From assembly GCA_026196575.1 (NCBI GenBank), contig JAPHSX010000032.1:1-64000 (forward strand): a stretch of DNA of 64,000 nt. Reading direction: 5' to 3'. The position numbers and the translations under genes are program-made. How positions within the stretch are numbered: position 1 is the first letter of the stretch; every line of letters begins with the position of its first letter. This document shows positions 12,950 through 61,526 of this stretch, in pieces. A model generated the notes under the pieces. The model saw only the letters and a program-made list of their open reading frames with translations, was not told the origin of the DNA and searched no databases. The DNA comes from Gammaproteobacteria bacterium (GTDB taxonomy: Bacteria; Pseudomonadota; Gammaproteobacteria; Thiohalomonadales; Thiohalomonadaceae).

Positions 12950-13859
12950 CCCCGGGCTGGCACGGCGGTGACTGCAACTCAATGTGCAGCATCCCCAGCG
13001 AGGCGTCGACATCGATGCGCAGCGGCAGGCGCCGTGCATCGTCGCTTAGCCACAGCATCATCACCCCCTCTTCGCCGCTCTCGTCGTGCCGGCGCACCTC
13101 AACCTTCAGCGCCGGGTCGTGGCAGTCGCCGCGTGGCAGCGGCTCGGCGCCCAGCAGGCGCGCCCGGTAGGTGGCCAGGTCATCCTCGTTGATGATCGGT
13201 AGCAACCGGGTCGCCTCCTGGCGGTAGTCGTGCCGACGCAGCTGCAGCAACATCGCCAGCGGGTCGATGGCATCGTCGTCGAGCCGCCCCGTCCGCTGTT
13301 TGTGCTGTAGCAGGTAACTCAGGCCGGGGGCGACCTCGGGTTGCGGGTCGATGAACGGCGGGGCCGGGGGGAGGTGGTCGGCCTCCCACTCCAGGATCGG
13401 GTCGCTGTCGAACATGGGGATGCTGACATCCCGCAGCTCGCGTTTGCGGTAGAGCGTAATGAGTTTTTGCTGCCAGTCGTACCAGTAGACCTCGTGGCTG
13501 TCGCTGTCGCCGTGGTCGCTCACCCGCACCAGCAGGGTGCGTTGCAGGTCGGGACTGAGGAGGCTCTCCCAGCGGTAGCGCAGGGCGTGAAGGGTCTCGG
13601 CGACGCTGTAACCCTCGGTGCTCACCTCCATCACCAGGCGCGCGGCAGGCTGGTCGCGCCAGACGGTCGGCTCCGGTGTCAGGTTCAGGGTGACGTCGGC
13701 CAGCTCCTTCCAGACGTAGCCGGTGATAAGGCCGCTGTAGCTGAGGCGGTAGTGGAGGGCGGCTGGTGACGGTGCCGACTCCGCACTCGCTGTCACGGCG
13801 GCGGCTGGCGCGGTCAGCGTCAGTAGCAGTAACCCGGCAAGCCGGTGTCGCAGGGGCAT
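12945..13859 (-). CDS. Secreted DUF3108 family protein
   Basis: The 304-residue protein has a signal peptide (MPLRHRLAGLLLLTLTAPAA, cleavage near AVTASA) and a DUF3108 beta-rich body (LHYRLSYSGLITGYVWKE at the start, LPLRIDVDASLGMLHIEL at the end). It is likely periplasmic or outer-membrane associated; family function is unknown. The start at 13859 is fixed by the signal peptide. The last residues (QPGA) and the TAG stop come from a palindromic repeat. It is divergent from the RlmN-like gene, 70 bp apart. Confidence 0.85.
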   Translation of the reverse strand: MPLRHRLAGLLLLTLTAPAAAVTASAESAPSPAALHYRLSYSGLITGYVWKELADVTLNLTPEPTVWRDQPAARLVMEVSTEGYSVAETLHALRYRWESLLSPDLQRTLLVRVSDHGDSDSHEVYWYDWQQKLITLYRKRELRDVSIPMFDSDPILEWEADHLPPAPPFIDPQPEVAPGLSYLLQHKQRTGRLDDDAIDPLAMLLQLRRHDYRQEATRLLPIINEDDLATYRARLLGAEPLPRGDCHDPALKVEVRRHDESGEEGVMMLWLSDDARRLPLRIDVDASLGMLHIELQSPPCQPGA

Positions 13860-13929
13860 GGGTGGTGCTCGTGTTGATGAAAAAATGGATGGTAACGGAA
13901 TAGAGCCGCCGAGTGGAGAGGCTGCTAAA

Positions 13930-14946
13930 ATGCGCCGCACCATGCATATCGAAGAGCTTCGCCAACTGCTGCGTGCCCACGGTGCCGGCCCCAAACATGA
14001 GGGGCGCGTACTGCGCGCCTGGAGCCAGGTGCGCCCCATCGACACCCGCCGCCAGCGGGTCGAGAACTTTCTCCCCCTCACCCTGCGTCAGGCGCTGCCC
14101 GCCATCGACGCACAGTTGCGGGGGGCGGTGCGCCTGCGCTCGCGCCACGCGGCGACCGATGGCTCGGAGCGGCTGCTGCTGGCGCTGGCCGATGGCCAGA
14201 CGGTGGAGGGGGTGCTGCTGCCGCGCGACGGGCTTTGCGTCTCGACCCAGGTGGGGTGTGCCGTCGGCTGTCTCTTCTGCATGACCGGGCGCGACGGCCT
14301 GCTGCGCCAGCTCGACAGCGTCGAGATCGTCGCCCAGGTGGCGCTGGCCCGCACCCTGCGGCCGGTCAAACGGGTGGTCTTCATGGGAATGGGCGAACCG
14401 GCCCACAATCTGGATAACGTGCTGGAGGCGATCGAGCTGCTCGGTATCGAGGGGGGGATCGGCCACAAAAATCTGGTCTTCTCCACCGTTGGCGATCGGC
14501 GCGTCTTTGCGCGCCTGCCACAGGGGCGGGTCAGGCCCGCGCTGGCCCTCTCGCTGCACACCACCCGTGCCGAGCTGCGCCAGCAGCTGTTGCCCAGGGC
14601 GCCGCAGATCGACCCCGAGGAGCTGGTCGAGCTGGGCGAGGCGTACGCCCGCGCCAGCGGCTACCCGATCCAGTACCAGTGGACCCTGCTGGAGGGGGTC
14701 AACGATGGCGAGGAGGAGCTGGAGGGGATCATCCGGCTGCTTGGCGGCAAGTACGCCATCATGAATCTCATCCCCTACAACAGCAACGAGGGACTCGGTT
14801 TTCAGCGCCCCGCTGCCGAGCGGGCCGAGGCGATGGTGCGCACCCTGATGCGCCACCGCATCCTCACCAAGCTGCGCAACTCCGCCGGTCAGGAGATCGA
14901 CGGCGGTTGCGGGCAGTTGCGGGCACGGATGGTCGCCGCCAAGTAA
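13930..14946 (+). CDS. RlmN/Cfr-family radical SAM RNA methyltransferase
   Basis: The 338-residue protein carries the radical SAM cluster motif CAVGCLFC (Cys near 110, 114 and 117), GMGEPAHNLDNV and STVGDRR. The methyl-carrier Cys is in the C-terminal GGCGQL motif. It would methylate an adenine C2 or C8 in RNA. It is shorter than E. coli RlmN (384) and its cluster-binding loop (CMTGRDGLLRQL) differs from the usual CSTAQQG, so it may be a paralogue with another target. ATG 13930 is chosen because GGAGAGG lies 9 bases upstream. Confidence 0.85.
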   Translation: MRRTMHIEELRQLLRAHGAGPKHEGRVLRAWSQVRPIDTRRQRVENFLPLTLRQALPAIDAQLRGAVRLRSRHAATDGSERLLLALADGQTVEGVLLPRDGLCVSTQVGCAVGCLFCMTGRDGLLRQLDSVEIVAQVALARTLRPVKRVVFMGMGEPAHNLDNVLEAIELLGIEGGIGHKNLVFSTVGDRRVFARLPQGRVRPALALSLHTTRAELRQQLLPRAPQIDPEELVELGEAYARASGYPIQYQWTLLEGVNDGEEELEGIIRLLGGKYAIMNLIPYNSNEGLGFQRPAAERAEAMVRTLMRHRILTKLRNSAGQEIDGGCGQLRARMVAAK

Positions 14947-15445: not shown

Positions 15446-15708
15446 GATAGTACCCTCCATATATTTCGTTTCCGGGTCGTCGCCTCAAAAAAGTAGACTA
15501 AATTACTCGGTTAGTCAAAGAGGTCATTGTCGCCGTTCTCCATGCCGTACCCTCCCGCAGGTTTTATCCCCCTGTCATTGCGGTGGCATGGCCGTGTCAT
15601 GTCGGGGCGGTAGATTTCCCCTATCGTTGGACAACTATGGGTCAAATCCAATGGAACGATGCCGCAGTGCCAAACCATTCAACCCCTTCCGTCTCGAAGA
15701 TATGTTGT

Positions 15709-16293
15709 TTACCTCCCTGCCGCGCCCCTTGAAGGCACCGCTGCTGGCTGGTCGTGTTTCCGGCCGGGGATGTCGCCCGCGTGCATCTGCCCGAAATCGA
15801 GGCGCGTGACGGCAAGTGGGATGTCAGAATTGCCCGTCTCATTCAATACAACCTCCCGAGCAAGTGTAGGGTGGTCAGGAGAGAGGGCCTGCGCCCCCGT
15901 GAAAAAATCGTCCCAAGGCACACTGGCAAATCGCTCGCCGTCTAGTACATCCAGGCATAGAATCTGTATAGATCCGATCACCTGGCGTACCTGCCACTCT
16001 TTCAGGCAAGAGTCATTCAGTACCGGTTGTAGGTATTTTATTAGATGCGTGTCGGATATTTCTGAAACATGGTGTTTGGCCAGATAAGCCAAAAACCGCT
16101 CCGCACGCAGGGTATACCAGTAGTGTGGCTTCTGTGATAGTTTCTTTTTTATCAGAGTGTTACGAAACAGATTCCAGTTGATATTGAAATGTCGTATGGA
16201 GATGTTCTGCTCGGAACAGGGTGAATGCCGGGACGGAGAAGTGGTGGAATGACAGCGGTTAAAGTCCATTTTCCACCCCGGTTGATGCGACAC
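15709..16293 (-). pseudogene. Truncated integron integrase (N-terminal SAM-like domain only)
   Basis: Residues from about 38 onward (NWNLFRNTLIKKKLSQKPHY, then RAERFLAYL, LKEWQVRQVIGSIQILC and PWDDFFTGAQALSPDHPTLA) match the N-terminal core-binding domain of integron integrases. After HPTLAREVV the frame runs into unrelated sequence. No catalytic domain, so none of the R-H-R-Y residues, is present here. Its position and direction (facing away from the cassettes) are those of intI. The array is therefore not expected to be rearranged by its own enzyme unless another integrase is present elsewhere. Confidence 0.8.
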
Positions 16294-16320
16294 CCTGTGG
16301 AACGCAGTGATTTTAACTTC

Positions 16321-16351
16321 ACCGATCTAGACAGCGACTGTCTAGATCGGT
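16321..16351. other. Perfect 14-bp inverted repeat in the putative attI/promoter region
   Basis: ACCGATCTAGACAG, CGA loop, CTGTCTAGATCGGT lies between the integrase start and the first cassette. It could be an operator, a hairpin or part of attI. It is not a LexA box, since the half-sites are in the opposite order (GACAG...CTGTC). Confidence 0.6.
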
Positions 16352-16375
16352 ATTAGATGCGACTGGCTATAACAC

Positions 16376-16382
16376 GTTATGC
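16376..16382 (+). other. Putative attI crossover (start of first cassette)
   Basis: GTTATGC marks the left end of the first cassette. Its complement GCATAAC is the R' box that ends the same cassette at 16813-16819. The full attI extent upstream is not definable by eye. Confidence 0.65.
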
Positions 16383-16392
16383 GTAAAATAAA

Positions 16393-16818
16393 ATGATTGA
16401 ATTCAAACACTTTACTATTTCTTCAGATCCTGAATGGAAATTCATGGAGTTCAAATCAATTGTCATTGGAAAGCATGAAGTTAACGGGTCTAAGTTGCAG
16501 CTAAGTTCTGCATACAATCATCCAACTTTTTATTTCAAGACACATAAAGAAGGTTTATTTGTTGCTAAGCAATTTGCGAAAGTCAATGAAGAAGTTAAAT
16601 CTGATGTATTAATTGACAATGGTTGTAAAATTGGTTGTATTGATAAATCCACTTCAAATAGCATAGAAACATATTTTTATATCATAAAAGACGGCAATGT
16701 TGTCGTTTCAGTATTGCAAGGTGGAACGTCAACTAAAGAAGAAAAAGACATCATTGCATCAATGTTAAGTACAATTAACTACAAGTCAATCAAGTGCGTA
16801 GCCAGTGAAAACGCATAA
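16393..16818 (+). CDS. Integron cassette protein, unknown (cassette 1)
   Basis: The 141-residue soluble protein has no signal peptide or membrane segment. It alternates short beta strands with a C-terminal helix ending EEKDIIASMLSTINYKS. That ending is reminiscent of PsbP/DcrB-like folds (a helix before SI-F), but this is weak. The ORF starts 10 bases after the cassette boundary without a clear ribosome site, as in many first cassettes. The stop TAA is part of the attC R' box. It is strongly AT-rich compared with the chromosome. Confidence 0.75.
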   Translation: MIEFKHFTISSDPEWKFMEFKSIVIGKHEVNGSKLQLSSAYNHPTFYFKTHKEGLFVAKQFAKVNEEVKSDVLIDNGCKIGCIDKSTSNSIETYFYIIKDGNVVVSVLQGGTSTKEEKDIIASMLSTINYKSIKCVASENA

Positions 16819-16919
16819 CAAAGCGCTCAAACCGACCCGCCTCCGCGGCACAAATTTATATGCTGTCAATAGCATAAAATTCATGCCGCTACGGCGGTCG
16901 GTTTAGCTTGGCGTTATAC
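16813..16919 (+). other. attC site 1
   Basis: The site runs from GCATAAC to GTTATAC, 107 bp. Inner complementary arms AAACCGACC and GGTCGGTTT and a second pair CCGC...GCGG allow the folded single-strand form. Confidence 0.85.
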
Positions 16920-16926
16920 GAAATAA

Positions 16927-17637
16927 ATGACTACTGAGACCACTACAATCACACGAACTAAGGAAGAGCAAGTAATCGCCAATGAAATGTTCAATTCATT
17001 GCGTGACGAATTGCTTAAGAGGGAGTTGTCAAATACGGAAAATTATGACAAAGCCATTTTAACATTATCTTCCGCCGCCCTTGGTATCTCACTTACAGCA
17101 ATAAAGTTTGTTGTTCCGCTTGATAGTTCTGAGCATATTTGGCTTCTAAAATTCGGTTGGCTACTACTTCTGTTTAGTATAGTTACGTCACTATCAGCAT
17201 ACTTAATGAGTAACAAAGCAATTTCCATTCAACTAAATAATGCAACTGACTATTACCACAAAGGAATAAACGAAGCATTTAATAGGAAAAATATTTATAC
17301 ATCTATTAACTTATTTCTAAACAAGGCAACTGGAATAGCCTTTATTGCAGCCATTTCAGCCATCGTTGCTTTTGTAATAACCAATCTAGAACCGGAGATA
17401 GAGAAAATGAGCACAAAAGACACAAACAAATCATCAACCACTGTAAATCTGAATGACAGCGCCACAATCCCCGTCATGCAGAAAGTTCCTACTGGGGTAG
17501 AAAAGAACAGCGCTACTATCCCGACAATGCAGCAAGCACCAGGAACTCAAACTACATCTCAAGGTGGCTCAGGTGCTGGTAATGGAGGTAACAGTGGTGG
17601 AGGTAGCAGCAGTGGTAACTCTGGTAGTTCTGAGTAA
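16927..17637 (+). CDS. Integron cassette membrane protein with Gly/Ser-rich tail (cassette 2)
   Basis: The 236-residue protein has three predicted membrane helices at about residues 42-62 (AILTLSSAALGISLTAIKF), 72-95 (WLLKFGWLLLLFSIVTSLSA) and 135-155 (ATGIAFIAAISAIVAFVI). A hydrophilic tail of about 75 residues follows with duplicated SATIP(V/T)MQ motifs, ending in a Gly/Ser-rich low-complexity stretch. The NYDKAILTLSS start of the first helix recurs in uncharacterised small membrane proteins of cassettes and defence loci as far as I recall; no function is assigned. ATG follows the cassette boundary by 13 bases. Confidence 0.75.
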   Translation: MTTETTTITRTKEEQVIANEMFNSLRDELLKRELSNTENYDKAILTLSSAALGISLTAIKFVVPLDSSEHIWLLKFGWLLLLFSIVTSLSAYLMSNKAISIQLNNATDYYHKGINEAFNRKNIYTSINLFLNKATGIAFIAAISAIVAFVITNLEPEIEKMSTKDTNKSSTTVNLNDSATIPVMQKVPTGVEKNSATIPTMQQAPGTQTTSQGGSGAGNGGNSGGGSSSGNSGSSE

Positions 17638-17640
17638 ATC

Positions 17641-17730
17641 GTATAACAACGCAGTCAACAGGGACGGTTTGCCGCGGCGTTCGCTATCGCTCACACCACA
17701 GCAAACCGCCCGTTACTGCAAACGTTATGT
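17641..17730 (+). other. attC site 2
   Basis: GTATAAC to GTTATGT, 90 bp. Arms GGACGGTTTGC and GCAAACCGCCC pair. The R' box is the complement of the box that opens cassette 2. Confidence 0.85.
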
Positions 17731-17746
17731 ATAAATAAGGAACGAA

Positions 17747-18091
17747 ATGGAAACATTCATATATACACTAATAATGGCAGCCATTACTGGGCTTACATTT
17801 ATCGCTTATAAACACCCAAATGGATATAAAAAGATATTTAATTTTATCTATTTTTTAAATTTTTTAATCTATGCAGTAGTGAGCGCATGGAGTGGTGCTA
17901 TATATTTATTTTGGTCAAACATAAATGAAAATATAACTGAAGAACAAATCAATATAATTGAACCAATATTTGATAAATTACATGTACCAACATTGGAAAC
18001 CAATTTGATATTTTGGGGCTCAATGATATATCTGCTTTTATTAAGTTTTTTGCCAACGCTACTAGAACATGAAAATAAGCAAAACACATAA
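17747..18091 (+). CDS. Integron cassette small membrane protein (cassette 3)
   Basis: The 114-residue protein has three predicted membrane helices: residues 3-20, about 32-57 (FNFIYFLNFLIYAVVSAWSG) and about 85-105 (LIFWGSMIYLLLLSFLPTLL). An acidic loop of about 25 residues separates the second and third helices. AAGGA precedes ATG 17747. I recognise no family. The stop codon lies within the attC R' box. Confidence 0.7.
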   Translation: METFIYTLIMAAITGLTFIAYKHPNGYKKIFNFIYFLNFLIYAVVSAWSGAIYLFWSNINENITEEQINIIEPIFDKLHVPTLETNLIFWGSMIYLLLLSFLPTLLEHENKQNT

Positions 18092-18169
18092 CAAGGCAAT
18101 AAACTTCGCGCGCAAAATGCATGCGCGCCGGACCCTCCTTACGTCGGGCCGGTTATCACAACGTTAGGT
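18086..18169 (+). other. attC site 3
   Basis: ACATAAC to GTTAGGT, 84 bp. The R' box complements the GTTATGT opening cassette 3. Inner palindromic GCGCGC-AAAATGCAT-GCGCGC lies in the variable part. Confidence 0.85.
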
Positions 18170-18180
18170 TTATAAAACAA

Positions 18181-18537
18181 ATGGATATAATTAGCCCGTT
18201 GCTCGTTGGTCTTATTCTTGCCGCAATAACCGGAATATCATATCTAGCTGTGACGCATCTGGATATATTTGAAGATATATCAGTGCCACTAATGTATGGG
18301 GTAACTGCGTTTAGCCTTGCTGTTATTATCTTCATAAGCGCATACAACAAGGGGCTGTCAGCTGCCATCGATAAAATATCAGACCCATCTATCGCTAAAG
18401 AGTTATTTAACGAAAGAACCGACGAGTCATCTATTTTATACATATTCGCATCATTGCTTGCTTTCATATTCTATTTGAAAGTAATTCACGGAGTCGGAAA
18501 AAGAATTAATGCAAATAAAAACCAAAATATGAAATGA
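18181..18537 (+). CDS. Integron cassette small membrane protein (cassette 4)
   Basis: The 118-residue protein has three predicted membrane helices: PLLVGLILAAITGISYLAV (6-24), VPLMYGVTAFSLAVIIFISA (36-55) and SILYIFASLLAFIFYLKVI (83-101). The loop between the last two contains a basic-acidic region (SAAIDKISDPSIAKELFNER). ATG 18181 is chosen because the longer frame runs through the preceding attC. No ribosome site is obvious. Family not recognised; the size and topology parallel cassette 3 without clear sequence similarity. Confidence 0.68.
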   Translation: MDIISPLLVGLILAAITGISYLAVTHLDIFEDISVPLMYGVTAFSLAVIIFISAYNKGLSAAIDKISDPSIAKELFNERTDESSILYIFASLLAFIFYLKVIHGVGKRINANKNQNMK

Positions 18538-18585
18538 GTTAAAAACACTTTTATGGCTATCATATCGTTCTCCAAACTAAAAAAA

Positions 18586-18656
18586 ACCTAACACGGCGCT
18601 CCAGCCGACCGGCAGCTTCGCTCTGCATTGCCGTCGCCTGAGCTGGAGCGTTAGGG
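18586..18656 (+). other. attC site 4
   Basis: ACCTAAC to GTTAGGG, 71 bp. Arms GCGCTCCAGC and GCTGGAGC pair. The R' box complements GTTAGGT opening cassette 4. Confidence 0.87.
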
Positions 18657-18681
18657 AAGTGAAAGGAGTAAATCTCGAATC

Positions 18682-19572
18682 ATGAAACTTGTATCAACTA
18701 CAGCACTTTCAAAATCGCTAGGGATTTCTACGAAAGAGCTTTTTGCGCACCTTCTCAATCGAGGATTTATTGAAAAAGATAATGAGTCATGGGCATTAAC
18801 AGCAGAAGGACAAGAAAACGGTGGTGAGTACAAAGAGTCAATGCAGCATGGAAAATATATTGTCTGGCCTGACAGTCTTGAGTTAAACGTCACAAACGGC
18901 GAGGATGACGGGGAGCAAACCAAAATGGTTACTGCGACTGCAGTCGGTCGGTCGTTTGAATTATCTGCGAATAAAATCAATTTTATACTTTCAGAGTTAG
19001 GCTGGCTAAACAAAGGGATCAAGGGCTGGGTTCTAACAGAGCAAGGTAAAAAACAAGGTGGTTTGCAAGCAGAAGATAAGAAGTCTGGCATTCCCTTTGT
19101 TAGATGGCCAGAAGCTATTATCGAGTCGAAGTCATTAAAGGAAACAATTGGGCACGTAAAGGGAACGGAAGAAGAGCAGAAATCAGAACCAAGAGATAAT
19201 GAACCCAATGACGTAGGATTCAGGGAAAAATTCGAGGCAAAGCACCGTGCGGCAGATGGCCATTTTGTTCGCTCCAAAGCTGAAATGCTAATTGATAATT
19301 GGCTTTATATGGCAGAGATAGTTCATGCTTATGAACGCAAGCTGCCTATCGAAGAAGATGTCTACTCCGATTTCTACATTCCTACTGGCAAGGTATACAT
19401 TGAGTATTGGGGCTACGAGAATGATCCAAAGTATCTAGCCCGCAAGAAGAAAAAAATAGAACTGTATAAAAAGTACGGTTTCAACCTCATAGAGCTTCAA
19501 GATAAAGAGGTGCAGAACCTGGATGATATTTTGCCAAGAATGTTGCTCAAGTATGGAGTTCAAGCATATTAA
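18682..19572 (+). CDS. Cassette protein: two winged-helix-like repeats plus Vsr/DUF559-like PD-(D/E)XK domain (cassette 5)
   Basis: The 296-residue protein contains two tandem repeats of about 60 residues (about 1-65 and 79-145). Each has a helix-turn-helix-like start (LSKSLGISTKELFAHLL; VGRSFELSANKINFILSEL), then W-x-LT-x-x-G-x-x-x-GG and a (I/V)xWP ending. After an acidic linker, residues 190-296 carry RSKAEMLIDNWL, DFYIPTGKVYIEYWG, RKKKKIELYKKYGFNLIELQ. This is the layout of Vsr/DUF559-like PD-(D/E)XK nuclease domains often found on helicases. The putative core Asp and Glu are present; the Lys may be supplied by the following helix. Role inferred: DNA-binding nuclease, perhaps defence. AAGGAG lies 11 bases upstream. 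Confidence 0.78.
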   Translation: MKLVSTTALSKSLGISTKELFAHLLNRGFIEKDNESWALTAEGQENGGEYKESMQHGKYIVWPDSLELNVTNGEDDGEQTKMVTATAVGRSFELSANKINFILSELGWLNKGIKGWVLTEQGKKQGGLQAEDKKSGIPFVRWPEAIIESKSLKETIGHVKGTEEEQKSEPRDNEPNDVGFREKFEAKHRAADGHFVRSKAEMLIDNWLYMAEIVHAYERKLPIEEDVYSDFYIPTGKVYIEYWGYENDPKYLARKKKKIELYKKYGFNLIELQDKEVQNLDDILPRMLLKYGVQAY

Positions 19573-19574
19573 TG

Positions 19575-19661
19575 CCCTAACAAGGAAAATTCACACGGAC
19601 AGCCAAAAGCGCCGCTCCTTCGTCGCTATGCTTTAGCTGCCGGTGATTTGCGGCGTTATGT
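19575..19661 (+). other. attC site 5
   Basis: CCCTAAC to GTTATGT, 87 bp. Arms CGGACAGC and GCTGCCGG pair. The R' box complements GTTAGGG opening cassette 5. Confidence 0.85.
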
Positions 19662-19688
19662 GAATAAAGCGAGATCGTAGAAGAAAAG

Positions 19689-19725
19689 AAGGGGTCAGGT
19701 CTTGACATTACGCTTTTTGGTTTTG
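19689..19725 (+). repeat. 37-bp dispersed repeat, copy 1
   Basis: The repeat begins AAGGGGTCAGGTCTTGACAT and ends CGCTTTTTGGTTTTG. It matches 21568-21604 at 36 of 37 positions. It resembles terminal sequence of REP-associated or IS200-like elements, an inference from memory. Confidence 0.75.
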
Positions 19726-19727
19726 CC

Positions 19728-19801
19728 ATTACGGTGACAGTTTACTAAATAGCTATTACGGGGTGGCATAATGAGTGTATTTAGTAAACTGTCACCGTAA
19801 T
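19728..19801. repeat. Perfect 23-bp inverted repeat (miniature element)
   Basis: The left arm 19728-19750 starts ATTACGGTGACAG and the right arm 19779-19801 ends CTGTCACCGTAAT, with a 28-bp spacer containing GGGG. A second overlapping inverted repeat (AAATAGCTATTACGG at 19747-19761 against CCGTAATAGC-GAGC-TATTT) allows alternative folding. Confidence 0.85.
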
Positions 19802-19832
19802 AGCGAGCTATTTAGCCAGGCGAAGCGCCGCC

Positions 19833-19908
19833 ATATAACAAGGCAAATTAACTCGGACCGCAAATTCCGCTGCGCTTCATTTGCGTCCGGTTATTTGCGA
19901 CGTTAGCG
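19833..19908 (+). other. attC site 6
   Basis: ATATAAC to GTTAGCG, 76 bp. Arms CGGACCGCAAAT and ATTTGCGTCCGG pair almost perfectly. Its R' box differs by one base from the complement of GTTATGT that opens cassette 6. Confidence 0.85.
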
Positions 19909-19970
19909 GCACAATGAAACACGGATGCAACGACAAACAACATTTTGAAAAGTAGATTTGTGGAGAGAAA

Positions 19971-20468
19971 ATGAACTCAGTTGATACCATTAGTCCTGAA
20001 CAAGGTATGTTTGAGCTATCACTCATGAATGGAGAAGCTTCAATTTATAATTTCGATGATCTGGTTGTTGAATCCATAAACAGGGGGGTTGCTCCAGAAA
20101 TTATTACGCGATTAAGGGAATTATGGGACAAAACAAAATATATCGCTGGCGAGATAATATCCGTAGGTAAGATTATAGTACAAAAAATTTTCGAATTTCT
20201 TAAAGCAAATCCTAAATTAACTATAGGGCTTGCTCTTGGCGCAGCAATTTCCGCTCTCATTGCAGGTATTCCATTTATTGGCCCATTAGTTGCTCCTGTT
20301 TCCACGACCATATCAACTTTGTATGGTGCTGGAGTTGGTGCAGCTATGGAGAAAGGCGATTTATCTGGTTCACCCTATTCCGCAGCTATAGAATTAGCAT
20401 CAAAATTTTTTGAGTTACTAAAATCAATATTTAATGCAGTCAAGGAATATTGGCTTGCAGAAAAATAA
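19971..20468 (+). CDS. Cassette 7 first gene: glycine-zipper membrane protein
   Basis: The 165-residue protein has an acidic N-terminal region and an amphipathic helix (about 50-78). A hydrophobic glycine-patterned segment spans about 83-125 (LTIGLALGAAISALIAGIPF then IGPLVAPVSTTISTLYGAGV). The C-terminal helix (FFELLKSIFNAVKEYWLAEK) is amphipathic. No signal peptide is evident. GGAGAG precedes ATG 19971. It is followed 35 bp later by a second gene with a similar glycine/alanine-rich membrane-prone core in the same cassette, which suggests a co-expressed pair. The composition resembles pore-forming or membrane-perturbing proteins, but no family is recognised. Confidence 0.75.
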   Translation: MNSVDTISPEQGMFELSLMNGEASIYNFDDLVVESINRGVAPEIITRLRELWDKTKYIAGEIISVGKIIVQKIFEFLKANPKLTIGLALGAAISALIAGIPFIGPLVAPVSTTISTLYGAGVGAAMEKGDLSGSPYSAAIELASKFFELLKSIFNAVKEYWLAEK

Positions 20469-20503
20469 AACTTTTCAAGAGTGTTTAATAAAGGAGTTTC
20501 GAT

Positions 20504-21460
20504 ATGTGGACTGATAAATTAAAAAAATTAGCTCAAGAAACACAAGAGAAAATTAAAAATGAAGTACCACATGCCAAAGAGTTAATTGGAAAAACAGCTT
20601 TAACTGCTGCTGAGTTAGGAAAAAATGCTAGCACAACTATTTATGGAAAGTGTACTCAAGTAGTGGATGCGAGCAATGAAATTGCAAGAAGTAAAGCAAC
20701 TCAACAGCTGTTGTCAAAAACTAAAGATGGGTTTACTAAAGCTGCATCTAATACAATTGAAATCGTATCTAATACCGCCAATAAAACTTCTGTATTATTT
20801 CGTCAAACTGTACAAGAAGGACATTTGAGAAATGTCTTTCAAAAATTAAGCTATCAAGAAAAATCTGAAAGACTTATTTCACTTACACAAGAAGATATTG
20901 ACAAAGCTGAGGGAAAAACTGAAGAAGAAAAAATAAATAATGCGATTGATAAACTTAAAAACAGAGATAAGGTTGGTGTAACTGGTGAGATATTAGGCGT
21001 GGCTGGAGGTGCTGCTGCTGGTGCTGCCGCTGCTGGGGCTGTGGCTGCAGCAGCAGGTGCTACCACAATTTTAGGTTCTACCACACTTGGAAGTGTTTTG
21101 GGCGGTGTATTCGTTGCGTCCACACCTGTTGGTTGGGTGGTTGGTTCAGCCGCTGCCGCTGCAGCATTAGGATATGGTATTACAAAATTAGTTCACTCAG
21201 GCGGTAAGCAAGACCAAGTCCGCAATGATATTGTAACCCGACTATATGATAAAATTGATAATCTTAGAAAAGCTAAAATTTCAGCAAACCAACTTAATGA
21301 ATTGAAAATCTTACTGCCAGTTGCGATTGAAAATAAGTTAATAACGGAAGAACAGGCAGACCGAATGATAAATCTTATTAATTTAAATAAATTGGACATT
21401 GAAATAGCATTAAATAGAATTAAATCACTAAAAATACCTGTAGTGATACAACAAAATTAA
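20504..21460 (+). CDS. Cassette 7 second gene: coiled-coil protein with Ala/Gly-rich membrane core
   Basis: The 318-residue protein has a Lys/Thr-rich helical N-terminal half (about 1-155) with repeated short KxA/TA patterns reminiscent of LEA-like or apolipoprotein helices. An Ala/Gly-rich hydrophobic hairpin spans about 165-228 (VAGGAAAGAAAAGAVAAAAG; ASTPVGWVVGSAAAAAALGY). The C-terminal helical region (about 235-318, including LYDKIDNLRKAKISANQLNE) ends it. AAGGAG lies 8 bases before ATG 20504. The gene is within one cassette with 19971-20468 and ends at attC 7. Function unknown; a two-component membrane-active module is plausible. Confidence 0.75.
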   Translation: MWTDKLKKLAQETQEKIKNEVPHAKELIGKTALTAAELGKNASTTIYGKCTQVVDASNEIARSKATQQLLSKTKDGFTKAASNTIEIVSNTANKTSVLFRQTVQEGHLRNVFQKLSYQEKSERLISLTQEDIDKAEGKTEEEKINNAIDKLKNRDKVGVTGEILGVAGGAAAGAAAAGAVAAAAGATTILGSTTLGSVLGGVFVASTPVGWVVGSAAAAAALGYGITKLVHSGGKQDQVRNDIVTRLYDKIDNLRKAKISANQLNELKILLPVAIENKLITEEQADRMINLINLNKLDIEIALNRIKSLKIPVVIQQN

Positions 21461-21461
21461 C

Positions 21462-21533
21462 CGCTAACAAGGCGCTCCACCGGACGGCAATTCCGCTGCG
21501 CTCCATTGCCGCCGGTGAGCTTGGCCGTTAGCA
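21462..21533 (+). other. attC site 7
   Basis: CGCTAAC to GTTAGCA, 72 bp. Arms GGCGCTCCACCGG and CCGGTGAGC pair, with GGCAAT and ATTGCC inside. The R' box complements GTTAGCG opening cassette 7. Confidence 0.88.
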
Positions 21534-21567
21534 GTAAAAATAATCTGGGAGGTTTTTAAGCGGAATA

Positions 21568-21604
21568 AAGGGGTCAGGTCTTGACATTGCGCTTTTTGGT
21601 TTTG
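21568..21604 (+). repeat. 37-bp dispersed repeat, copy 2
   Basis: It is identical to 19689-19725 except for one base. It is followed by about 90 bp that ends in CATTATGTGAAGAGG, which resembles a decayed cassette boundary (compare GTTATGTGAATA at 19655). Confidence 0.75.
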
Positions 21605-21709
21605 GGTCAATGGGGCATGAGTTGTTGATTGCGCAGACACCGACCATATTGGTTCGCTGTGCTTTGTTTGCGCCGCACAGCTTCGTCATTATGTGAAGAG
21701 GAATATCGG

Positions 21710-22486
21710 ATGAAATACGAAGATTATCGAAGGAATCACGTTATCGTGCCTGGCAGGGAAGATGCGCTTGATGCATTCATTCGGCAGGATTACAAGAGAA
21801 TGCAGCACAAGGTGAAAAATGCCTACAGTTCTAATAGCGAAGACGCTCTTACATGGTCCTGCTTCGACATGCTTGAACACCTGCCTTTATTAAACAAAAT
21901 CGAAGCGCTAGATGATATTTTATCTGATTCATATGCTGGGAACAGCCCTATATCTTTATCTGAAAAAGGCCTCAAAAACAGTGACGTATCAATCCATGTA
22001 GGTAAAAGATACGACGCCCCAAATATAAATGAATCAACTGAAGTCGATGCAAGTATCGAAACACCGAAGGCCTTGATATTTATAGAGGCAAAGCTATATT
22101 CCGCTGTTAGCCCCGCATGCCCACCAGAAAAGCCGCATGATCAAATTGCTAGAAAGCTTCGCATAGGTTTGGATACAGCTTATCAATCAAGCAGTGAGTT
22201 CTATTTTATCTTCTTGGATATTGCTCCTCTGGAAAAAATGAACCAACGAAGGTCAAAAGCGGAAGTCATGGAAAAATCTTCCGGTGGGTACAACGACAAG
22301 TGGAAGAGTGCCTGGCTATTCAGCTACTACAAAAAGGGGCGTGCTAGTAGTCTCAAACCACTGGAGAAAGCGCTTGAGGGTGTAGCCGAAAAAGCGAGTA
22401 TCCCAAAAATTGCTGCAAATATGGGGTGGCTTACTTGGGCCGATTTATTCAAATGTACTTTGCGGGCAGCCATTAATGCCAAGTAA
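21710..22486 (+). CDS. PD-(D/E)XK nuclease-like protein at the end of the cassette array
   Basis: The 258-residue protein contains ESTEVDASIETPKALIFIEAK at about residues 104-124, spaced as the PD-(D/E)XK active site: Asp, then E-A-K in a hydrophobic strand. An upstream Glu-containing helix (SEDALTWSCFDMLEHL) fits the first conserved helix. A likely C-terminal positioning region includes WLTWADLF. ATG 21710 is preceded by a GAAGAGG ribosome site; a longer frame to 21629 starts within repeat debris. No attC follows, so it is either the last degenerate cassette or flanking DNA. Likely a restriction-like nuclease; target unknown. Confidence 0.75.
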   Translation: MKYEDYRRNHVIVPGREDALDAFIRQDYKRMQHKVKNAYSSNSEDALTWSCFDMLEHLPLLNKIEALDDILSDSYAGNSPISLSEKGLKNSDVSIHVGKRYDAPNINESTEVDASIETPKALIFIEAKLYSAVSPACPPEKPHDQIARKLRIGLDTAYQSSSEFYFIFLDIAPLEKMNQRRSKAEVMEKSSGGYNDKWKSAWLFSYYKKGRASSLKPLEKALEGVAEKASIPKIAANMGWLTWADLFKCTLRAAINAK

Positions 22487-22687: not shown

Positions 22688-23272
22688 CTAGGTTATAGGG
22701 GATTTTTGTCGCGGCTTCAGCCGAGCCAGTAGTAGCACGACCAGGATTACCGCATAGAGCAGGGGCTCCAGCGTGAGTACCTTCGCCAGCATCAGATAGT
22801 GTGTTACCGCGCCGATGGCAATGGGGTAGACCAGTTTGTGCAGTCGTCGCCAGTTGCGACCGAGGCGGTGCATCCACCTGTCCGTGGAGGTGACGGCCAA
22901 GGGAATGAGCATCAGGAAGCTTGCCATGCCGATGGTGATGAAGGGGCGCTTGATGATGTCGCTCCCGATCTCCGGCCAGTAGAAGAACTGATCGAGCACG
23001 ATATAGCTGCCAAGGTGTAGCAGGGCATAAAAGAAGGCGTAGAGCCCGAGCATGCGCCTGAGGCGCATCGGCCAACCCCAGCCGCTGACCCTGCGCAGCG
23101 GTGTGACGGTGAGGGTGAGTAGCAGAAAACGCAGCGCCCAGTCACCGAGCGTGCGGGTGATGGCCTCGATGGGGTTGGCGCCAAGGGTGCCACTCCACGC
23201 ACCGTAACCCAGCCACAGCAGTGGCAGCAGGAGTGCGATAAAAATGAGTGACTTTATGTGGTTAATGTTCAT
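22688..23272 (-). CDS. msrQ: Methionine sulfoxide reductase heme-binding subunit MsrQ
   Basis: The 194-residue, six-helix membrane protein feeds electrons to periplasmic MsrP. It carries heme-ligand His residues in FFYALLHLGSY, GRNWRRLHKLVYP and GAVTHYLM, and the family motif TVTPLRR. ATG 23272 (MNINHIKS) has an AGGG just upstream; an ATG at 23284 is in frame. It lies 64 bp downstream of msrP on the same strand, the usual msrPQ order. Confidence 0.93.
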   Translation of the reverse strand: MNINHIKSLIFIALLLPLLWLGYGAWSGTLGANPIEAITRTLGDWALRFLLLTLTVTPLRRVSGWGWPMRLRRMLGLYAFFYALLHLGSYIVLDQFFYWPEIGSDIIKRPFITIGMASFLMLIPLAVTSTDRWMHRLGRNWRRLHKLVYPIAIGAVTHYLMLAKVLTLEPLLYAVILVVLLLARLKPRQKSPIT

Positions 23273-23336
23273 CGCGCCCTGCATAGGGTGAGAGGTTGCC
23301 GTCTCAGGGTGAGTACTGCCGACTGCTTCCCGTTGC

Positions 23337-24296
<960 letters not shown>

Positions 24297-24595: not shown

Positions 24596-27500
24596 CTATC
24601 TCAGGAAGTGGCGCAGGGCCTTCCCCGTCTCCGATCGCTTCCAAGCCTTCACCAGCTCCCCCGGCGTCCCCTCGACCACCACCTCGCCGCCGGCGTCTCC
24701 GCCCTCGGGCCCCATGTCGATGCACCAGTCGGCCTCGGCGATGACATCGAGGTTGTGCTCGATCACCACTACCGAGTGGCCGGCATCGACCAGCTGGTGC
24801 AGCACGCGGATGAGCTTCTCCACGTCGGCCATGTGCAGGCCGACGGTGGGTTCGTCTAGCACGTAGAGGGTGGGGGTGAAGGTGCGGGCGTTGGGGCGGG
24901 CCTTGGCGAGTTCGGTCACCAGTTTGATGCGCTGCGCCTCGCCGCCGGAGAGGGTGGGGGATTGCTGGCCGAGGGTGAGGTAGCCGAGGCCGACCGCCTG
25001 CAGCAGTTGCAGCGGGTGGTGGATCTTGGGGTGGTGCTCGAAGAAGGCCACCGCCTCGTCGACGCTCATCGCCAGCACGTCGCCGATCGACTTGTCGCGG
25101 TACCTGAGCGCCAGGGTCTCGGGGTTGAAACGGGCGCCGTGGCACGACTCGCACAGCGTCTTCACGTCGGGGAGGAAGGACATCTCTACTTTTGTCATCC
25201 CCTGCCCCTGGCAGCTGTCGCAGCGCCCGCCGCCGGTGTTGAAGGAGAAGCGGTTGGCCTTCCAGCCGTGGATGCGCGCATCTTCCGTTTGCGCATAGAG
25301 TTTGCGGATCTCATCCCAGAAGCCGACGTAGGTGGCGGGGCAGGAGCGCGGGGTCTTGCCGATGGGGGTCTGGTCCACCTCCAGCACGCGCTGGATGGCC
25401 TGCCAGCCTTCCATCTTCGCACAGCCGTGGTAGTGGTCGCCCGCGATGCGCCCCTTGCTGCCGGCGCGGGTGATGAGGCTCTGCAGCGACTTCACCACCA
25501 CCTCGCGCACCAGGGTCGACTTGCCGGAGCCGGAGACGCCGCTGACGCAGACCAGCCGCTGTAGCGGGAGGGCGATGTCGAGCTGCTTGAGGTTGTTGAG
25601 CGCGGCGCCCTGTATTTGTAGGAGCGGCGTCTCGCCGCGATGGGTGTCCTCGGTGGCCCCTGGTCGCGGCGGGGACGCCGCTCCTACAGGGATCGAGACA
25701 GGTCTTGGCTCGAATAGGGGGTGCTTGAGCGGATGGGCGAGGAACCGGCCGGTGAGCGAGGCCTTGTTCTTCATCAGCGCAGCGACACTGCCGGTGTGCA
25801 TCACCTCGCCGCCGCGCACTCCGGCGCCGGGGCCGATGTCGATCACGTGTTCGGCGCTGCGAATGGTCTCCTCGTCGTGCTCCACCACCACGATGGTGTT
25901 GCCCTTGCCCTCCAGTTTTTTCAGGGTCTTGAGCAGCAGGGCGTTGTCGCGCGGGTGCAGGCCGATGGTCGGCTCGTCGAGGATGTAGCAGACCCCGCGC
26001 AGGTTGGAGCCGAGCTGTGCGGCCAGGCGGATGCGCTGCGCCTCGCCGCCGGAGAGGGTGGGGGCGGCGCGATCCAGAGTGAGGTAGTTGAGGCCGACCT
26101 CCTTGAGGAACTCCAGGCGGGCGATGATCTCGCTGACCACGTCCTGGCCGATCGCCTGCTCGCGTTGAGTGAGCTGCAACGCCCTGAAGATCGGCAGCGC
26201 CTCCGCCACCGGGCAGGCGGCGTACTCGGCGATGTTCCAGTCGTGGAAGTAGACCGCCAGCGCCTCGTCGTTGAGGCGTGCCCCCTCGCAGCGGGGGCAG
26301 GTTTCAGGTTCACCCTCACTCTCTAACCACTCTCCCTCTTCACCCGACTGCTCGGCGTCGAAGCCGGGCAGCACGGTGCCGGTGCCGTAGCAGCTTTCGC
26401 ACCAGCCGTGTTTGGAGTTGTAGGAGAAGAGGCGCGGGTCGGGCTCCTCAAAGCCGGTGCCGCAGCTGGGGCAGGTGCGGTGGGTGGAGAAGTGGTGCTC
26501 CTCCCCCCAGTCGCCGCCGCGTTTCACCCGCGCCACGCGCACGGTGCCCTTGCCGTGATCCAGCGCCTCGTCAAGCAGCCCACGCAGCTCCTCTTCGGCC
26601 TCCGGCTTGATGGTGAGTTCGCCCAGCGGCAGGTCGATGTTGTGTTCGCGATAGCGATCCAGCACCGGCCAGTTGGCGGTGGGCAGTGGTTCGCCGTCAA
26701 CGCGAAGGATGGCGTAGCCCTTGCGCTCGGCCCACTGCGCCAGCTCCTTGTAGATCCCCTTGCGGTGGATCACCAGCGGGGCGAGCAGGGCGACCTTCTT
26801 GTTGCGGTAGTCGCCCATCAGCTGGGCGAGGATCGCATCGCGCGACTGCGGGGCGATCGGTACCTGACAGGCGGGGCAGTATTGAACCCCTAATTTCACG
26901 AACAGCAGGCGCAGGAAGTGGTGGATCTCGGTGAGGGTGCCGACGGTGCTCTTGCGCCCGCCACGGCTGGTGCGCTGCTCGATGGCGACAGTGGGCGGGA
27001 TGCCGAACACCGCGTCCACCTCGGGTCGTGAGGCGGGCTGCACGAACTGGCGCGCGTAGGCGTTGAGCGACTCCAAATAACGGCGTTGCCCCTCGTTGAA
27101 GAGGATGTCGAAGGCGATGGTCGATTTGCCCGAGCCGGAGACGCCGGTGATGACGGTGAACTTCTCGCGCGGGATCTCCACTGAAATATTTTTCAGATTA
27201 TGCTCGCGGGCGTGGATGATCTGGATGTCATTCTGCGTAGGATGGGCAAAGGCGGGTTTTGCTGTGCCCATCAGCGGCGGGGAAGGACGATGGGCACGCG
27301 GCGCTTTGCCCATCCTACGGTTGTCGCGGGGTGTAAATACATAGTTGCGCAGCGCCTTGCCGGTGTGGCTGGTTTTATGTTTGGCCACTTCCTGCGGCGT
27401 TCCCTCGCACACCAGCTCGCCGCCGCCGTCGCCACCTTCGGGCCCGAGCTCGATGAGCCAGTCACTGGCGGCGATGACATCGAGGTTGTGCTCGATGATG

Positions 27501-30319
27501 AGCAGCGAGTGGCCGACGCGCAGCAGGCGGCGCAGCGCCTTCAGCAGCACCGCGATGTCGGCGAAGTGCAGCCCGGTGGTCGGCTCGTCGAGGAGGAACA
27601 GTAGCCTGTCGCCCGCCTTGCGCTTGCTACCGCTCTTGGCGAGGTAACCGGCGAGCTTGAGGCGCTGTGCCTCGCCGCCGGAGAGGGTGGGCACCGGCTG
27701 GCCGAGCCGCAGGTAACTGAGACCCACAGCCTTGAGCGGCTCCAACACCTTGTGAATATCTTTTTCGTCTTTAAAGAATTGCAGCGCCTCGGTGACAGTG
27801 AGATCGAGGATGTCGGCCACAGACTTGCCGTCGACTTTCACCTCTAATATTTCGTTGCGGTAGCGTCTGCCGTTGCAGTCGGGGCAGCGCAGGTAGACGT
27901 CGGAGAGGAACTGCATCTCCACGTGCTCGAAGCCGGAGCCGTTGCAGGTGGGGCAGCGGCCGTTGCCGGAGTTGAAGCTGAATGTGCCGGGTTTATAGCC
28001 GCGCTCTTTCGACAGCCTGGCGTTGGCGAAGCGCTTGCGGATCGCATCCCAGGCGCCGACGTAGCTCACCGGGTTGGAGCGCGAGGACTTGCCGATGGGG
28101 GCCTGATCCAGCAGCACCACATCGTCGACCAACTCGTGGCCGAGAATTTCCCGGTGCGCTCCCGGCACCTCCTGCGGGTGGCCCTTGAGTAGCGCAAGGG
28201 CGTTGAACAGCACCTCCTGCATCAGGGTCGACTTGCCGCAGCCGGAGACCCCGGTAAGGGTGACCATGTGGCCGAGCGGGATCTTGATGTCGATATTTTT
28301 CAGGTTGTGCTCGCGTGCCCCTTTGATCACCAGGTGGCGGGTGGTGGCATCGGGCGGGTTGTTCTCACCCTCCTCCGTAACTTGACGAGATCCGTTGAGA
28401 TACTGCGCGGTGAGTGAGTTTTCGGGATTGTTGTGGGAGCGGCGTCCCCGCCGCGAAGGGTTGCTTGAGCTGCCCTTTCGGCCCGGGGACGCCGCCATGG
28501 ATGGCGGTGCTTCACTGCGTCTGGAACTTGCAGTATGCAGGCCTCCCACAAGTTCCTGCGGCGTGCCGTAGAAGACGATCTCGCCGCCGCGCTCGCCGGG
28601 GCCGGGGCCGATGTCGAGGATGCGGTCTGCCTGCAGCATGATCTGCGGGTCGTGCTCCACCACCAAAAGAGAATTTCCCGCATCGCGCAGGCGGTTCAGT
28701 ACGCCGTTGATGCGATCGATGTCGCGTGGGTGCAGCCCGATGCTTGGCTCATCGAGCACGAACAGGGTATTTACTAATGATGTGCCCAGCGCGGTGGTGA
28801 GGTTGATGCGCTGCACTTCGCCGCCGGAGAGAGTGCGCGACTGGCGGTCGAGGGTGAGGTAGCCGAGGCCGACGTCGAGCAGATAGGTGAGGCGCGAGCG
28901 GACCTCGTCGAGCAGCAGCCCGAAGTCACCGGCCGCTTTTTCCCGCTTACTGAACAGGGTGTCGAAGAAGCGCATGGCGCGCTCCAGCGGCAGCTGCATC
29001 ACATCGTAGAGGTTGAGGCCGGGGAGATTTCTATAAACCGTATCCTCCATGGTGACGATGGCGGCGCGAAAACGCTGTGCCGGGTCGAGCACCGCGTCGG
29101 CATCGTCCCTGCTGCCGAGGCGAAAGTCGAACACCTCGTCCTTCAGCCGTGCGCCGTGACAGCTGGGGCAGACGTCGTAGCTGCGGTACTTGGAGAGCAT
29201 GATGCGGATGTGCATCTTGTAGGCCTTGCTCTCCAGGAAGTCGAAGTACTCCTGCACCCCGTACCAGGACTTGCCGTTACTGAATTCACTTTGGGGCCCC
29301 TCGCCCTCGATTACCCACTGTTTTGTCTCCTCGTCGAGATCCTTCCACGGGGTGTCGAGGTCGATCTTCTGTTTGCGCCCGTAACGCAAGATATCCTCCT
29401 GGCACTCCATCGAATAGCCGCTGCGAAACGGCTTGATCGCGCCCTCTCTGATCGAAAGCGACTCGTCGGGGATCACCAGCTTCCAGTCGATGCCGATGGT
29501 GCGGCCAAAGCCGCGGCAGCTGTCGCAGGCCCCTAGCGCGGAGTTGAAGGAGAAGAGGTTGGGCTGCGGCTCCTTGTAACGGATGTCACAGGGGGCGCAG
29601 TGGAGGTCACTCGAAAATTTCAACTGCAGCGCCGGGTCGTCGTGGTTATAGACGGCGCACTTACCGTGCCCCTTCTCCAGGGCGATCTCCAAGGCCTCCA
29701 CCAGACGGCTGCGGTTGTCGCGGTTGAGGCGCAGGCGGTCCTGTACCACCTCGATGGTGGTTTCACTTTCGCTGTGCAGCCGGGTGTAGCCCTGTTGCTC
29801 CAGCACCTTTTTGATCTCGTCGCTGGTGAAGTTGTGCGGGATCTCGATGGCGAAGGTGACGATGAGGCGCGGCTCCACGCTGCCTGCTTCTTTCACTAGC
29901 TGCTCGAAGATCCCGTCCGGGTTGTCGCGCTCTACCGGCCGCCCGCAGCCGTGGCAGTGGAGGGTGGCGGCGCGGGCGAACAATAATTTTAAATGGTCGT
30001 TGAGCTCGGTCATGGTGCCGACGGTGGAGCGCGAGGTGCGCACCGGGTTGGTCTGGTCGATGGCGATGGCCGGCGGAATGCCTTCGATAGAGTCGACCTG
30101 CGGCCGGTCCATGCGATCCAGGAATTGCCGCGCGTAGGGGGAGAAGGTCTCGACGTAGCGGCGCTGGCCTTCTGCATAAATAGTGTCGAAGGCGAGTGAG
30201 GACTTACCCGAGCCGGAGACCCCGGTGACCACGATGAGCTCACCCAAAGGTAGCTCCAGGTCGAGGTTCTTCAGGTTGTTCTGGCGGGCGCCTTTAATCG
30301 TGATGTGGTCGTTGGCCAT
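24596..30319 (-). CDS. uvrA: Double-length UvrA (four ABC ATPase modules)
   Basis: The 1907-residue protein is two complete UvrA units in tandem, against about 940 for ordinary UvrA. Walker A motifs lie near residues 33, 690, 1060 and 1598 ([32 protein letters not shown]). ABC signatures (LSGGE) lie near 498, 882, 1425 and 1793, each followed by an LDEP(S/T)xGLH Walker B. Cys-pair zinc modules are present in both halves ([23 protein letters not shown]). All four ATPases look intact. Tandem UvrA of this size is known, for example in Chlamydia. The three junctions between modules hold in-frame palindromic repeats. Start ATG 30319 fits the UvrA N terminus ([13 protein letters not shown]). It would recognise DNA lesions with UvrB. 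Confidence 0.95.
25617..25688. repeat. Palindromic repeat inside uvrA (third module junction)
   Basis: The 72-bp element has left arm TGTAGGAGCGGCGTCTCGCC and right arm ending GGACGCCGCTCCTACA, the same family as copy 1. It is exactly 24 codons and encodes a Pro/Gly/Arg-rich linker near residues 1544-1567 of UvrA. Confidence 0.9.
27236..27319. repeat. Palindromic repeat inside uvrA (second module junction)
   Basis: The 84-bp element is bounded by a perfect 16-bp inverted repeat, CGTAGGATGGGCAAAG and CTTTGCCCATCCTACG, belonging to the GTAGGxTGGGC type. It is exactly 28 codons, near residues 1001-1028, between the two UvrA halves. Confidence 0.9.
28432..28550. repeat. Compound palindromic repeat inside uvrA (first module junction)
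   Basis: The left arm is TGTGGGAGCGGCGTCCCCGC and the inner right arm GGCCCGGGGACGCCGCC; a second right end CCTCCCACA closes at 28550. The reading frame stays open (about residues 590-630), giving a Ser/Arg/Pro-rich linker. Confidence 0.8.
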
Positions 30320-30484
30320 GGTTCGATGTTCGCGGTAGGGGGCACACATTGTCGGTATCCCCCGCGCGTGGCGCAAGGTGCGCAAATCCGTAATAAAAAG
30401 GCGGGTATGTGTGGCGGGATCTCACTCGGCGCATCGGGTAAAGTAGGCGGCTCCATGGTTAGGCATGACGGGTCGATGGGTGGA

Positions 30485-60794: not shown

Positions 60795-60820
60795 AAAAAG
60801 CCCCGCTAAAGCGGGGCTTC
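60795..60820 (-). terminator. Terminator of pilA
   Basis: AAGCCCCGC, TTTA loop, GCGGGGCTT followed by TTTATT on the minus strand. It separates pilA from the downstream glycosyltransferase gene, allowing high pilA transcript with some readthrough. Confidence 0.85.
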
Positions 60821-60843
60821 CGTTGGCTGTGGCTGGTGCAGGC

Positions 60844-61302
60844 CTACTTGCAGGCGTTCGGAATATACTTCTTGTCCATGTCGGTTGTACCCGCTGCGCC
60901 ACCGATTTCACCGCAATCCCACTCCGCACCGTCCAGGGAGGAGATGGCGAAGATTTTGCCAGCGATAGCGGCGGCCACGCCAGTTGCTTTCATCGTCGCG
61001 CTAACGACAATGCTGGTTGTGTCAACTACGCCACCGGCACCTGCGGCAATGGTGACCACTGAAACATACTTCCCTTTTTTGATGTCGCTGACCGTGGTCA
61101 GAAAACTCGGCCATATGCCCTTGTCCGCGCCGTACTCAGCCAACGGGGTCTTGGTGCCGGAGGTCAGGCTCATGGCCTCGGAGACCTGGGCGCGGGCGAT
61201 GTAGTCCTGGTAAGCGGGGATGGCGACGGCGGCGAGGATGCCGATGATGGCCACGACGATCATCAATTCTATGAGGGTAAAGCCCTTTTGCATTTTATTC
61301 AT
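60844..61302 (-). CDS. pilA: Type IV major pilin PilA
   Basis: The 152-residue prepilin has leader MNKMQKG cleaved before [20 protein letters not shown], with Glu5 of the mature N terminus. A C-terminal disulfide loop is formed by Cys in EWDCGEIGG and PNACK. Size and loop match group I (Pseudomonas-type) pilins. A sigma-54-like promoter lies about 60 bp upstream, fitting control by the adjacent PilR. Confidence 0.95.
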
Positions 61303-61362
61303 GGTAGTTACTCCGTATTGGGTGGTGAATCTGTTCTGCCCCTGGTGGGCTGGCTTTAATAA

Positions 61363-61378
61363 AGCAGTTTACATGCCA
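61363..61378 (-). promoter_or_regulatory. Sigma-54-like promoter of pilA
   Basis: On the minus strand TGGCATG, TAAA, CTGCT gives the -24/-12 elements with correct spacing (consensus TGGCAYR-N4-TTGCW, one mismatch in the -12). It lies about 60 bases upstream of the pilA ATG. Confidence 0.75.
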
Positions 61379-61526
61379 AATTGTAATGGGGGTTGCGGGG
61401 CGGTGGCAGCGGTTTTTATGTGACGTGGCGCCCGTTTTTGTGGCATTTGGCCTGGTTGTTGGCGTTATAGGGTGGCGCGGACTGACAAAAAACGTCATTC
61501 AGTGACGCATAGGGGCGGTTGCCTGG

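Follow-up and report, generated by a model that had tools for sequence, protein, structure and literature searches.

A gammaproteobacterial integron array headed by a truncated long integrase gene and a duplicated attI: a probable satellite cassette platform

Introduction

Integrons are DNA platforms that collect genes as movable cassettes, and in the usual model one integrase (IntI) goes with one attI site and one array. A survey of integron integrases found that a fifth of the carriers have more than one intI, that about one third of the intI genes are pseudogenes and that several of the broken copies come from duplication within the genome (PMC2426708). The same survey described a deltaproteobacterial group, clade 15, with a gene fusion and IntIs about 120 amino acids longer than usual (PMC2426708). 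A functional IntI acting in trans can mobilise arrays that have no integrase, known as clusters of attC sites lacking integron-integrases (CALIN) (PMC12444791), and the delta-attI cassettes of clinical integrons carry extra copies of attI (PMC12901181). Here we analyze a stretch of 64,000 bp (the window, positions 1–64000 of contig C4) from the genome of a gammaproteobacterium (2.74 Mb in 74 contigs). It carries a chromosomal integron array headed by an attI and by the remnant, or stub, of a long intI gene, of which the same genome has an intact paralogue with its own attI. We consider it likely that this array is a satellite cassette platform, served in trans.

Results

The integron array

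The sequence-only reading of this stretch had proposed a chromosomal integron with at least seven cassettes and seven attC-like sites of 71–107 bp. Both claims are borne out by an attI and by seven attC sites, the latter located between 16813 and 21533 and all in the same orientation (Table 1). When the bottom strand was folded, six of the seven sites gave long imperfect hairpins with extrahelical bases. A covariance model was built from the seven sites (using trimmed cores, the full-length MAFFT alignment having misaligned the arms), and over the whole genome its six best matches were window attCs, that is, all but attC1, whose long loop probably explains the miss. The next match (C31:60806–60877, 23.7 bits) lies outside the training set and on inspection is a genuine cassette end, GTTAGGG...CCCTAAC with an ORF. 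It belongs to a third cassette locus of the genome (C31, about 60800–61450) that consists of one canonical cassette plus half sites, and neither an integrase core nor a stub was found in the 14 kb fetched there. A hand-written attC finder was abandoned as too strict, detecting three of the seven window sites and none in first-order Markov resamplings. A scan of the window against Rfam at gathering thresholds gave no matches.

In six of the seven units the opening and closing heptamers are exactly complementary to each other, as had been noticed from the letters, while the opening heptamer matches the following R' box in none of the seven; only 2 of 5040 permutations equalled the observed own-unit matching. 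The single mismatching unit is cassette 6 (GTTATGT/ATATAAC), with heptamers that differ at one base. Such complementarity is a standard cassette property, as the insertion of a circular cassette at the G^TT of R' must leave this pattern, and it is therefore strong evidence of integron origin, but no novelty. The GC content between the rlmN-like and the msrQ/msrP-like genes that flank the array drops to mostly 34–43%, against 58–69% around, so that the description of AT-rich cassettes in a GC-rich chromosome is accurate for most of the array.

The integrase stub and its intact paralogue

Next to the attI, the integrase-stub ORF contains 141 codons (15847–16269) with homology to a long IntI, namely to its N-terminal extension. 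A DNA search with window positions 15700–16400 matched C39:1–427 (window 15955–16381) and C29:1–158 (window 15830–15987). Joined, these two contigs encode an IntI of 481 amino acids (TIGR02249, 440.6 bits over the NCBIfam cut-off of 265), to which the window block of 552 bp is 90% identical without a single gap. The left end of the block falls inside intI, after residue ~141, and its right end is the attI crossover; in fact, the attI was placed at 16376–16382 because the homology to C39 ends at the crossover.

The canonical core-binding and catalytic domains of the 481-residue IntI both lie wholly beyond the point where the stub ends, and for this reason we identify the stub as the extra N-terminal domain. 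TIGR02249 had no match in the window, and no core or catalytic integrase domain was found at the locus. The integrase is thus decapitated, as first read, but what it retains is the extra extension of the long IntI and not the core-binding domain. The stub ORF resembles Phage_int_SAM_4 with E=2.4e-5, just below the cut-off, and by sequence the extension has a weak resemblance to integrase SAM-like domains (lambda Int, E=0.025–0.044). Its AlphaFold model has a confident, well-packed helical core, and a fold comparison ranked XerA, the Vibrio integron integrase and Cre highest, though none of the three was significant alone. An origin of the stub from a phage or XerC-type recombinase was discarded because the stub shares 90% DNA identity with a genuine intI gene at its 5' end.

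A search of the genome for complete intI genes yielded two, the one spanning C29 and C39 (441 bits) and another of ordinary length at C17:7705–8700 (458 bits, same cut-off). The statement that the array lacks its own enzyme is therefore correct in cis but incomplete, intact IntIs being present elsewhere in the genome. The C17 IntI has GTTATGC and GCATAAC boxes upstream and neighbouring ORFs in the integrase's own direction; the covariance model found no attC beside it.

The attI palindrome

A perfect palindrome lies within the window attI (Table 1). Palindromes located 24–35 bp before the crossover appear in most of the 19 loci of this integrase type, intact or decapitated. Their sequence varies from lineage to lineage, and the window palindrome is more symmetrical than that of the intact copy. 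By analogy with attI1, which has four IntI1-binding regions (PMC12901181), we suggest that the palindrome probably represents accessory integrase-binding boxes. A LexA box was considered and rejected, the order of the half-sites being reversed. It is not clear that the palindrome is special to long IntIs, since a short IntI (on G001:C34, see below) has a similar repeat upstream.

Recurrence in other genomes

We compared a profile of the extra domain with 369 sampled gammaproteobacterial genomes and found the domain in 46 of them. Leaving the present genome out, 35 genomes contained near-full-length copies (36 in all) and 17 contained short ones (25 in all), and seven of these other genomes had both kinds. 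At least three of the short copies are merely cut by contig ends (G129, G267:C67 and G102:C2), and a match to the extension in G035 looks spurious. Many contigs end within the extension domain, as repeated DNA would cause. Stubs without a core were confirmed at re-examined loci of G001, G362, G267, G067, G202, G219, G264, G112, G150, G321 and G100. The truncation points differ among the copies and several of them (in G001, G150, G202 and G219) contain stop codons. A left truncation made by IntI itself, suggested by a GTT in the window (...GGGAG-GTTGT), was dropped, as the G202 copies have no GTT.

Wherever a stub locus had an attC match, the attCs lay on the opposite strand, divergent from the stub. 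G362 has at least six attI copies, mostly 82–94% alike, that share the end at the crossover and have different cassettes behind each. Similarly, G202 has three stub and attI copies and G067 two, all of which stop at the crossover and are followed by different cassettes. Besides, within one array of G362 (contig C45) an attI-only copy of 58 bp is followed by a toxin-antitoxin-like cassette and then by a stub and attI block, which looks like a natural arrangement of the delta-attI type. In G001, a relative of the same genus, the stub of a decapitated long IntI (contig C181), containing a TAA, lies beside attC sites, and attC1-like DNA, found independently of the covariance model, adjoins it; contig C34 holds, separately, a complete short IntI accompanied by attC sites of its own. 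Beside IntI genes or stubs, the covariance model found five sites in G053 and two on this G001 contig, and more in further genomes, including G150, G267, G112 and G358. Allochromatium palmeri DSM 15591 is among the carriers of the long IntI. The recurrent satellite-attI pattern looks new; our literature searches, which left most subscription journals outside, gave no description of recurrent stub-plus-attI platforms.

Cassettes, cargo and flanks

Plus-strand ORFs had been reported between the attC sites, and this holds for six of the seven cassettes, the exception being cassette 6. In PADLOC, the protein of cassette 5 matches the candidate anti-phage protein PDC-S69 over its full length. Only four other genomes among the 369 have homologues, and these were rejected as a sign of cassette exchange, with no attC match beside them. 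ORF b of cassette 7 is an orphan among the same genomes, and both ORFs of this cassette have hydrophobic stretches rich in Ala and Gly.

Cassette 6 contains a near-perfect 27-nt inverted repeat (arms at 19725–19751 and 19778–19804). Other copies of its 23-mer core are found in this genome only on C39 (C39:2156), where the copy adjoins a likely transposase gene associated with repetitive extragenic palindromes (REP) that interrupts the array of the second integron. The window array has two copies of a 37-bp repeat (AAGGGGTCAGGTCTTGACATT...), one in cassette 6 (19689–19725) and one at 21568–21604, where the eighth attC is damaged, and partial copies are scattered over C20, C31, C7 and C1. The remaining half of this eighth site resembles the right half of the C31 attC.

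The chromosomal flanks did not provide an empty site for comparison: G001 gave none, its msrPQ contig stopping at msrQ, and in G008 no msrPQ was present in the ~9 kb examined to either side of the rlmN homologue. Beyond the msrQ/msrP-like genes there is a UvrA-like ORF of 1929 amino acids (24596–30385) with UvrA domains repeated in one frame.

Table 1. Position of the integron components, cassettes and flanking genes in the window.
Feature	Position	Strand	Remarks
rlmN-like gene	13858–14946		left flank of the integron stretch
Integrase-stub ORF	15709–16293	-	194 aa; extension-homologous part, then unrelated tail
Duplicated block	15830–16381		intI 5' end + intergenic + attI; 552 bp, 90% identical to C29/C39
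attI palindrome	16321–16351		perfect, 31 bp, ACCGATCTAGACAG-CGA-CTGTCTAGATCGGT; 24 bp before the crossover
attI R box	16376–16382	+	GTTATGC, crossover G^TT; also opening heptamer of cassette 1
Cassette 1 ORF	16393–16818	+	141 aa; no confident family
attC1	16813–16919	+	107 bp; hairpin fold
Cassette 2 ORF	16927–17637	+	236 aa; N-terminal hydrophobic segments by inspection; no family
attC2	17641–17730	+	90 bp; hairpin fold, covariance-model match
Cassette 3 ORF	17747–18091	+	114 aa; hydrophobic by inspection; no family
attC3	18086–18169	+	84 bp; weak pairing, covariance-model match
Cassette 4 ORF	18181–18537	+	118 aa; hydrophobic by inspection; no family
attC4	18586–18656	+	71 bp; hairpin fold, covariance-model match
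Cassette 5 ORF	18682–19572	+	296 aa; PDC-S69, PADLOC E=9.8e-113
attC5	19575–19661	+	87 bp; hairpin fold, covariance-model match
Cassette 6	19655–19839	+	no ORF of at least 60 aa; 27-nt inverted repeat
attC6	19833–19908	+	76 bp; hairpin fold, covariance-model match
Cassette 7 ORF a	19971–20468	+	165 aa; hydrophobic central stretch by inspection
Cassette 7 ORF b	20504–21460	+	318 aa; weak LeoBC match
attC7	21462–21533	+	72 bp; hairpin fold, covariance-model match
Eighth attC, damaged	21568–21694	+	right half only, R' = ATTATGT at about 21688
Last cassette-like ORF	21710–22486	+	258 aa; without closing attC; weak PDC-M15A match
msrQ/msrP-like genes	22688–24296		right flank of the integron stretch

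Discussion

The window contains a real integron array with a truncated intI of the long type, the genome has a paralogous intact integrase with its attI, and the arrangement is recurrent. We believe that the best account of these facts, and a likely one, is a satellite cassette platform, a sedentary chromosomal integron headed by a long-IntI stub and probably served in trans. The block formed by the 5' end of intI and the attI is a diverged paralogue (90%) of the one that precedes the intact 481-residue IntI, and the local integrase has lost everything downstream of the extra N-terminal domain. The cassettes entered the window attI by the normal chemistry of IntI, with a single-stranded attC and crossover at G^TT, as the heptamer pattern and the homology ending at the crossover show. 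The intact long IntI can probably still recombine the platform in trans, since its attI, perfect palindrome included, is apparently intact and six of its attCs are well formed. The C17 IntI possibly serves it as well. As to the stub, it is most likely a leftover, kept, we would guess, for its nearness to the attI, and not a working protein.

Several observations weigh against this interpretation. The poor pairing of attC3 and the broken eighth attC imply that parts of the array are decaying, and no consensus sigma-70 promoter (Pc) for the cassettes was found in 15640–16420. The dN/dS of 0.41 between the stub and the intact copy (14 synonymous and 20 non-synonymous changes) does not discriminate selection from decay. 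Finally, C29 and C39 both start within an identical 33-mer that is also found at window 15955–15987. This 33-bp repeat lies at the contig break and permits a swapped pairing, in which the intact intI goes with the window array and the stub with C39; it is formally possible and represents the main technical doubt.

Were the two integrons cross-joined at this repeat by the assembly, the array of seven cassettes would belong to the intact intI, and the beginning of both contigs inside the 33-mer speaks for such an artefact. We regard it as improbable, given that the assembly, presumably guided by reads, runs through the repeat in C4 but leaves C29 and C39 open, and that decapitated copies recur elsewhere, including the single-contig genome G150 and a 3.7-Mb contig of G264. 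A more serious contender, although we would put it clearly below even chances, is a plain pseudo-integron, that is, a duplicated integron that lost its integrase by deletion and in which the array is frozen and slowly decaying, with no recombination either way. The degraded attC3 and eighth attC and the heptamer mismatch of unit 6 would fit, and so do the frequency of intI pseudogenes and the origin of several of them in intragenomic duplication, both mentioned above, and the Xanthomonas arrays that turn stable once intI is lost (PMC12444791). On the other hand, an intact IntI that is compatible, and whose attI is 90% identical, is present in this genome, the window palindrome is the more perfect of the two, and six attCs remain well formed.

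As a further possibility, the stub itself could still work as a protein. It would then be a SAM-like DNA-binding domain standing on its own, with attI as its target and with a role in regulating or assisting the intact integrase. Its 141 codons have remained open despite 10% divergence with the dN/dS given above, both XerA and the Vibrio integron integrase rank among the best fold matches of its predicted helical core, weak as these are statistically, and stub-only copies recur, many of them without a stop codon. However, this dN/dS is not decisive, and both the stop codons found in four of the genomes and the variation of the truncation points are as expected of leftovers, so that we think a function of the stub as a protein quite unlikely.

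Returning to the satellite platform, the pattern repeated across genomes suggests that such platforms are a habit of the long IntI type, their function being what we infer from it. A wider version is a multi-platform integron, in which stub and attI satellites scattered over the chromosome, each with its own cassettes, would all be served by one intact long IntI, with its extra DNA-binding-like N-terminal domain, and would be bred by duplication of the attI module or by IntI-driven movement; we offer it tentatively, as an idea with less to be said for it than against. If several attIs were served in trans, cassettes would be captured in parallel and not in series, and expression from the first position could occur at several loci together. 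An intact and a decapitated attI that differ at about 10% of their positions in one genome are a testable pair. The locus also suggests that finders which insist on an integrase in cis would class platforms still fit for use among the dead clusters.

Comparison with known systems

The locus shares with the sedentary chromosomal integrons of the Vibrio and Xanthomonas type the attI, the R''/L''/L'/R' layout of attC with extrahelical bases, the single orientation of the cassettes and the AT-rich cargo. It has hairpin attCs with canonical boxes and an attI beside an intI, here a stub; it differs in that no catalytic integrase is present in cis, the intact ones being elsewhere in the genome, and in that what is left of the integrase is a long IntI's extra N-terminal domain. 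With at least two attC sites (seven) and no IntI core nearby it falls within CALIN, but unlike them it retains an attI together with about 440 bp of intI. The deltaproteobacterial clade 15 also has longer IntIs, a likeness in length, while the present long IntIs are gammaproteobacterial. Delta-attI cassettes have in common with the window an extra attI and flanking sequence away from the intact integrase, and the copies within the G362 array are alike in this. In contrast, the window copy heads an array and adjoins chromosomal genes, with no cassette seen to its left, and its attI does not lie downstream of a cassette ORF, so that it does not qualify as a cassette of this type. As in the pseudo-integrons and intragenomic intI duplicates described before (PMC2426708), a functional integrase and a broken copy coexist in one genome. 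The broken copies found here differ in sharing one layout, the 5' extension plus attI only, with homology ending at the crossover, and in being several in some genomes of the present survey.

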